Shown here piece by piece: positions 3,498 through 31,790 of a DNA stretch of 41,777 bases. The DNA comes from Nitrospira japonica (GTDB lineage Bacteria; Nitrospirota; Thermodesulfovibrionia; Thermodesulfovibrionales; DYHX01): NCBI GenBank assembly GCA_020723925.1, contig DYHX01000008.1, forward strand, positions 1 through 41,777. The letters are read 5' to 3'. How positions within the stretch are numbered: the first letter of the stretch is position 1; each line of letters starts with the position of its first letter. A program made the translations under genes and the position numbers. The notes beneath the pieces were generated by a model. It did not search any database. It had not been told where the DNA came from and saw only the letters and a program-made list of their open reading frames with translations.

Positions 3498-3610
3498 TGC
3501 AGCCAGGGGCTGGCCCTGCGCAGCAGGTGGATGTGAACCCCGCCAGGTCCGGAAGGAAGCAACGGTAAGCATTTTCCCTGGGTGCCGCAGCAAGCCGGTC
3601 CCTGGTTGCA
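3498..3610 (+). ncRNA. ffs: Bacterial small signal recognition particle RNA (4.5S)
   Basis: Conserved apical motif CCAGGTCCGGAAGGAAGCAACGGTAA; terminal pairing tgcagccaggg/ccctggttgca; lies upstream of dnaX. Confidence 0.92.
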
Positions 3611-3641
3611 GAAAGAAAAAAGAGCTGACAGATTAAAGCCA

Positions 3642-3769
3642 GGCAGGACATAGTATTTTCGCTCATTCTCGGTCGCCTGAGGCGACCTCCGAGGTTTTGC
3701 CCGCTTTTATATCTCGATGTTACTATATGAATTGCAGGCAAAAAAGCCGCTCAAATACTGTGTCCTGCC
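3642..3769 (-). repeat. GGCAGGACA structured element, copy 1
   Basis: Termini ggcaggacatagtatttt / caaatactgtgtcctgcc; internal hairpin ctcggaggtcgcc-tca-ggcgaccgag (minus strand); related to 28148..28272 and 31642..31771. Confidence 0.8.
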
Positions 3770-3807
3770 TGCACCTTACAATTGCATCATTTTGGTAAAA
3801 TGAACCT

Positions 3808-28053: not shown

Positions 28054-28147
28054 TAATACCCAAATCCAGCGATAACCGCAGGCGGCACAATCTGTCGATG
28101 AGTCTTATTGTTTAAGGAGCTGTATTGATGGCTTCAATCAAACTATA

Positions 28148-28272
28148 GGCAGGACACGGTATTTGAGCGGTTTTTTTCGCTGATAAGCGAGGACAGGATG
28201 TCCGAGCAAGCGAAAACCTCGGAGGAAGGCTTGGATGCCTTCCGAGAATGAGCGAAAATACCATGTCCTGCC
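28148..28272 (+). repeat. GGCAGGACA structured element, copy 2
   Basis: ggcaggacacggtatttgagcgg ... gagaatgagcgaaaataccatgtcctgcc; internal ctcggaggaaggc-ttggat-gccttccgag. Confidence 0.8.
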
Positions 28273-28312
28273 TATTTAGAATAGTTTATGAATAATCTGG
28301 GTTAGACGACTA

Positions 28313-31566: not shown

Positions 31567-31641
31567 ATAAAATAGTTGTCAGTGAATAGTGAACAGTTTT
31601 TAGTTTACAACAAGAGAAAAAATTAATGCATAGAAATGAAA

Positions 31642-31771
31642 GTTGGGCATAGTATTTGAGCGGTTTATTTTGCCGATAGTCCGACAGTATATTTATTTAA
31701 AAATCAAGAGGCAAAATCCTCCCAGCCCTGATATTATCGGGGCGAGAATGAGCGAAAATATTATGCCCAGC
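31642..31771 (+). repeat. GGCAGGACA structured element, copy 3 (diverged)
   Basis: gttgggcatagtatttgagcggttta ... ggcgagaatgagcgaaaatattatgcccagc. Confidence 0.72.
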
Positions 31772-31790
31772 TTTTTTAAATAACTAAAAA

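Follow-up and report, generated by a model that had tools for sequence, protein, structure and literature searches.

In the Bacillus cereus group, bcr1 and further structured repeats are present in multiple copies in intergenic regions, and a fold with a conserved structure has been proposed for them. The bacterial MITEs Correia/NEMIS, ERIC and RUP resemble the element described here in being non-coding, intergenic sequences of 100-200 bp with a long stem running from end to end and, as regards the longer form of the element only, in having terminal inverted repeats that end at TA; a further likeness to ERIC is that orientation matters for the effect on mRNA (PMC2229807). REP/REPIN elements with their RAYT enzyme are likewise dispersed intergenic palindromes with a strand preference, and integron attC sites are alike in working, structure rather than sequence being conserved and one DNA strand being the folded one. 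Template switching between the arms of an inverted repeat homogenises the arms and inverts the spacer (PMC8604942). A role in the origin and upkeep of RNA hairpins has also been proposed for it, loop inversion being a telling but rare footprint (PMC8794818).

The window, that is the whole stretch of 41,777 nucleotides that was analysed, contains three copies of the element (Table 1). A sequence-only reading had placed them at 3642-3769 (minus strand), 28148-28272 and 31642-31771; all are present at these places, with the outer stem P1 extending a few bases beyond the proposed ends. The block GAGAATGAGCGAAAATA is identical in 3/3 copies; allowing 3 mismatches, 0.16 matches are expected by chance, and none of the shuffles had as many as 3. 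On the read strand the fold z-scores are -6.5, -7.7 and -5.3 for copies 1 to 3, and 0/200 dinucleotide shuffles were as good. At gathering scores Rfam identifies in the window an SRP RNA and four tRNAs, and nothing else; the small SRP RNA gene (3507-3604) lies directly before dnaX and is followed by copy 1. The family had been described as having three copies, a number that proved too low: the genome of the window (G000, 1.87 Mb) holds four full copies, three on the window contig and one at C85:42001-42139, and in a related genome (G330) the 17-mer matches at about 37 places with no more than 1 mismatch.

Table 1. Positions of the element copies and of their parts in the window, with scores from the covariance model R1
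Feature	Position	Strand	Context or basis	R1 score (bits)
Copy 1	3638..3773	-	between SRP RNA gene and dnaX, antisense to both	120.4
Copy 2	28144..28276	+	between convergent cytochrome c7-type and FKBP genes	111.8
Copy 3	31637..31776	+	between tRNA gene and tadA-like deaminase gene, both minus	127.7
Copy 1, outer stem P1, 5' arm	3753..3771	-	model pairs 3-21	
Copy 1, outer stem P1, 3' arm	3640..3658	-	model pairs 3-21	
Copy 2, outer stem P1, 5' arm	28146..28164	+	covariance model	
Copy 2, outer stem P1, 3' arm	28256..28274	+	covariance model	
Copy 3, outer stem P1, 5' arm	31639..31657	+	covariance model	
Copy 3, outer stem P1, 3' arm	31756..31774	+	covariance model	
Copy 1, invariant block GAGAATGAGCGAAAATA	3654..3670	-	exact 17-base match; spans P3 closing, junction and inner P1 end	
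Copy 2, invariant block GAGAATGAGCGAAAATA	28244..28260	+	exact 17-base match	
Copy 3, invariant block GAGAATGAGCGAAAATA	31744..31760	+	exact 17-base match	
Right half of outer inverted repeat (CTAACCCAGATTATTCATAAA)	28285..28305	-	8 bases past copy 2; left half absent	

Copies are spread through one class of the Nitrospirota. The search with R1, a covariance model built from 43 copies, covered 396 genomes of this phylum and gave matches in 88: 77 from the order of the window (its own genome included), 9 from elsewhere in the class and 2 from elsewhere in the phylum. In each genome 8 candidates were scored, so the counts read as at least 8 copies in many genomes. An exact 17-mer scan of contigs from one genome per species yielded at least 120 stretches, and among those listed most are Nitrospirota/Thermodesulfovibrionales MAGs with the full architecture. 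Matches in other phyla (Ezakiella, Pelagibacter and others) lack this architecture and were discarded as chance, as were 7 exact matches in viral contigs, 0 of which fit the model. Two loci (L041 and L090) carry full elements in a MAG labelled Nitrospinota (JAHILQ) and so assigned to another phylum; mislabelling, contamination or transfer are possible origins. The sequence-only reading recognised no family, in agreement with Rfam (release 15), where no family covers the elements and no match was obtained at the gathering threshold or at E values up to 10. Searches of the open literature gave no description of such an element in Nitrospirota. The family is real, widespread and, as far as tested, undescribed, with an unusual evolutionary behaviour; for a phylum that has been little studied, it is an additional structured family, numbering dozens of copies per genome.

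The fold is a three-way junction comprising the outer stem P1, a tandem G-A/A-G step with two GC pairs, the junction itself and two inner hairpins, P2 and P3. The GAGCG found on both sides, taken at first as simply unpaired, contributes in the consensus the tandem G-A/A-G mismatch and the paired G-C/C-G. P1 measures about 19 bp, its inner end (TATTT/AAAATA) being nearly fixed and its outer part free. P2 reads GG ... NTTTTGCC/GGCAAAAN ... CC and encloses the conserved GCCGATANTC...AAGAGGC; P3 is free in sequence, closed by TC/GA and with a GGA bulge. The near-invariant letters of the family are GAGCGG, CCTCGGAG and GAGAATGAGCGAAAATA. A second palindromic repeat (CCCCCCTTAGTCCCCCCTTGATAAGGGGGG...) has been inserted repeatedly in the P2 apical loop (L008, L009, L034, L038, L047, L110 and L112), the rest of the element being undisturbed.

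The matched stem changes noticed in the window extend to the 43 sequences of R1, where P1, P2 (TTTTGCC/GGCAAAA plus its base) and P3 each covary, with two-sided changes in 26 of the 38 model pairs. The covariation score, calculated on the same data from which alignment and structure were chosen, is 0.422 and lies above both controls, 0.148 in shuffles (0/500 reach 0.422) and at most 0.083 with the partners slid. A test of P1 without the model agrees with this result: 13.1 of 14 positions pair with their own partner and 9.8 with the partner from another copy, and pairing drops to background sharply after about 19 pairs. That structure is kept while sequence changes, as first suggested from three copies, holds strongly with more of them, in the 43-sequence model, in the model-free test and in pairs of copies at the same gene junction.

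The read strand is the folded one, as RNA or single-stranded DNA, whichever way the element lies in an operon. Among 132 distinct copies its non-Watson-Crick pairs are GT in 235 cases and AC in 68 (P1, 180:46; P2 and P3 together, 55:22), counts in which related copies enter separately, so that the cells are not independent, and in which model fitting favours GT slightly. A double-stranded palindrome yields no excess of this kind. Orientation makes no difference to the excess, which holds for copies antisense to the operon (97:27), sense (22:8) and between convergent genes (31:9). Selection at the level of the mRNA in operons was considered and rejected, the AC/GT ratio pointing the wrong way.

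A longer form, present in a subset of copies, carries an outer inverted repeat (TTARCCCRNNTTATTCATRAA) that flanks P1 at a distance of about 10 bases. Of about 130 copies, 17 have these repeats at both ends, 22 have one of them (with about 10 one-sided cases in the wrong-orientation control) and the rest have none. They end at TA; comparison for a target-site duplication gave empty sites in diverged relatives only and no clean one. G330 has 39 occurrences of the motif and G304 has 58, with 0 control matches; outer repeats are common in these two genomes, and identity between cores of one genome reaches 97-99%. Where genomes have core-only copies, the similarity within a genome is no higher than between genomes; between families, cores are about 93% alike. 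Some lineages have therefore seen recent movement; elsewhere many copies are old. Complete units with outer repeats measure about 156-255 bp, the core about 130 bp; they need no ORF and reach dozens of copies, being short, non-coding and multi-copy as MITEs are. With terminal inverted repeats in its longer form and near-identical copies, the element is or was mobile.

No transposase or autonomous relative was found among the genes adjoining copies or in one widely spaced outer-repeat pair of G330. The latter, on contig C48, was rejected as an autonomous element, having ordinary genes only; at G330:C48:152500-155500 (L217) a truncated and a complete copy flank two such genes, and their outer repeats mimic one unit of 1.8 kb. 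Copying of the P1 arms from the target site at insertion, considered for two G238 copies that share the core and not the arms, was also rejected, recent G304 copies sharing their arms. Two lone outer-repeat motifs of the window genome (L298, G000:C20:4957-4977; L299, C76:31800-31820) lie upstream of gene starts with a common extension (CTAACCCRRATTATTCATAAACNTTGATAARATATAAAC) and may be promoter or regulator sites, or left-over ends.

Comparison of flanks identified copies that share one gene junction between genomes, also between genera. One of them, upstream of dnaX, is present in G000, G260 and G403; its flanks are homologous in the three, and its P2 is of one rare type. At this ffs/dnaX junction the core is inverted in G403 relative to the other two, and G256, of the same genus as G403, is without the copy. 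A second pair inverted in place is L069/L131, and in L289, L295 and L301 the core is inverted relative to two types of outer end. Across 16 overlapping comparisons of same-junction copies, the P1 pairs that differ comprise 70 two-sided changes, 25 one-sided but still paired and 22 that break the pair in one copy. Copy 2 has no counterpart at the same place in 29 other FKBP loci and copy 3 no clear one in 29 other deaminase loci, with a single 26-bit match in L361.

Covariation alone is no proof of selection, because arm-to-arm template switching in DNA also gives matched changes and predicts in-place inversions (PMC8794818, PMC8604942). Both footprints, matched arms and inverted core, occur here, so mutation may account for some of the covariation. 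Three features speak for selection on the fold as well: GT exceeds AC on the read strand, the junction letters are fixed and the stem is limited in length. Because one copy can be followed at its gene junction through many species, where two-sided changes in the stems and inversions of the whole core are visible, the family is a natural test set for whether compensatory changes come about in single template-switch events or in selected steps that pass through GU, and it lends itself to testing how folded sequences spread and keep their pairing.

The preferred reading, given about an even chance, is that of a MITE-like, non-autonomous mobile DNA element of the Nitrospirota, mainly of the order of the window, with a folded strand recognised in trans and arms kept complementary by selection together with template switching. 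A trans-acting enzyme would move the mobile form as a unit between its terminal repeats, and the folded strand, RNA or single-stranded DNA, would be bound at the fixed letters by a putative protein, for which the mobilising enzyme or a host factor is the simplest candidate. Once the element is inserted, arm-to-arm template switching would carry changes across P1 and sometimes invert the core, and selection would remove copies with a damaged folded strand. The sense orientation would be disfavoured in operons because a folded RNA would interrupt or destabilise the host mRNA. It counts against this reading that no transposase or autonomous relative came from the adjoining genes and the repeat pair mentioned above, that most copies are without outer repeats and that no target-site duplication was read against a clean empty site. 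Decay at old junctions would be expected of a purely selfish element, yet the cores remain as alike between families as stated above.

More tentatively, and with clearly less confidence, the family may be a class-wide mobile element in which the folded single strand is itself the recognised unit for movement, template switching keeps the pairing perfect and repeatedly inverts the core in place, and many copies are long retained at operon junctions. If this is true, mutation, and not selection only, would maintain a complex RNA-like fold.

The copies are intergenic, often with only tens of bases remaining (by crude longest-ORF gene calls), and between tandem genes 84 are antisense and 24 sense (binomial p ~5e-9, uncorrected for shared ancestry). 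The flanking genes form a mixed housekeeping set, where neighbour enrichment identified thiG and thiE as the sole recurrent families. Within the thiamine operon, whose genes thiS-thiG-thiE-thiC were named by means of conserved protein ends and Pfam, elements occupy three junctions in G238 and G136, two in G274 and one in at least 7 further genomes. They are always antisense and reach up to three successive junctions in distant lineages (L150/L310, L330 and L325); most genomes of the family f15 have none in this operon. Recurrence at these junctions, in at least 10 genomes, favours a structured RNA or cis-regulatory element with a host function, spread by transposition and then kept, for instance for antisense control of the operon or for limiting antisense transcription. 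Conservation of the core between families in genomes without recent amplification is in line with such a function, as are the inner letters of P2, conserved beyond the need of pairing. It is considered doubtful, however, as in most cases the folded strand lies antisense to the operon and so is absent from its mRNA, the remaining flanking genes are mixed, neither copy 2 nor copy 3 of the window is shared at its site and many genomes carry no copy. The thiamine operon junctions offer a concrete place for testing function.

A passive palindrome, where template switching during replication homogenises the arms and inverts the core with no selection on the fold, would account for the two-sided changes outnumbering the one-sided at shared junctions and for the in-place core inversions, both being published signatures of the process (PMC8604942, PMC8794818). 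It does not predict a GT excess on one strand, a direction in which P2 and P3 also point, and is improbable in view of the sharply limited length of P1, the near-invariant junction letters and the covariation of P2 and P3. Only a slim chance is given to an attC-like recombination site, folded from a single strand and acted on by a tyrosine recombinase on one strand of the DNA: the variable stem sequence, the one active strand, the folded strand opposite the coding strand of the neighbours and the single intergenic sites fit it, but no conserved R-box letters (RYYYAAC / GTTRRRY) are present at the element ends, where the outer P1 positions change freely and take all four bases, copies are dispersed and not in cassette arrays, and no recombinase is enriched among neighbour genes. 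A REP/REPIN-type element moved by a RAYT (Y1, TnpA-REP) enzyme, an idea already raised in the sequence-only reading, has in its favour the intergenic palindromes and the Y1 genes of 75/122 genomes of the order of the window, but is already disfavoured and scarcely credible, as Y1 genes neither track nor flank the element (the complete genome G004 lacks a Y1 gene and carries at least 8 copies, and R1 places 0 elements near the best 30 Y1 genes), no GTAG-type foot was seen and the unit is several times the length of a REP.

With respect to the known systems, bcr1 is set apart by description, the Nitrospirota element belonging to a different phylum and having a different architecture. REP/REPIN elements are much shorter and come with a RAYT, whereas here none is nearby and a many-copy genome is without a Y1 gene. 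The element also differs from integron attC sites, having neither R boxes nor cassette arrays and carrying its junction letters inside and not at the ends. Finally, when compared by description with Correia/NEMIS, ERIC and RUP, it is distinguished by the three-way junction with fixed letters, the strand-specific compensatory change and the class-wide spread, and also by a core-only form free of terminal repeats and by the inversion of the core in place.
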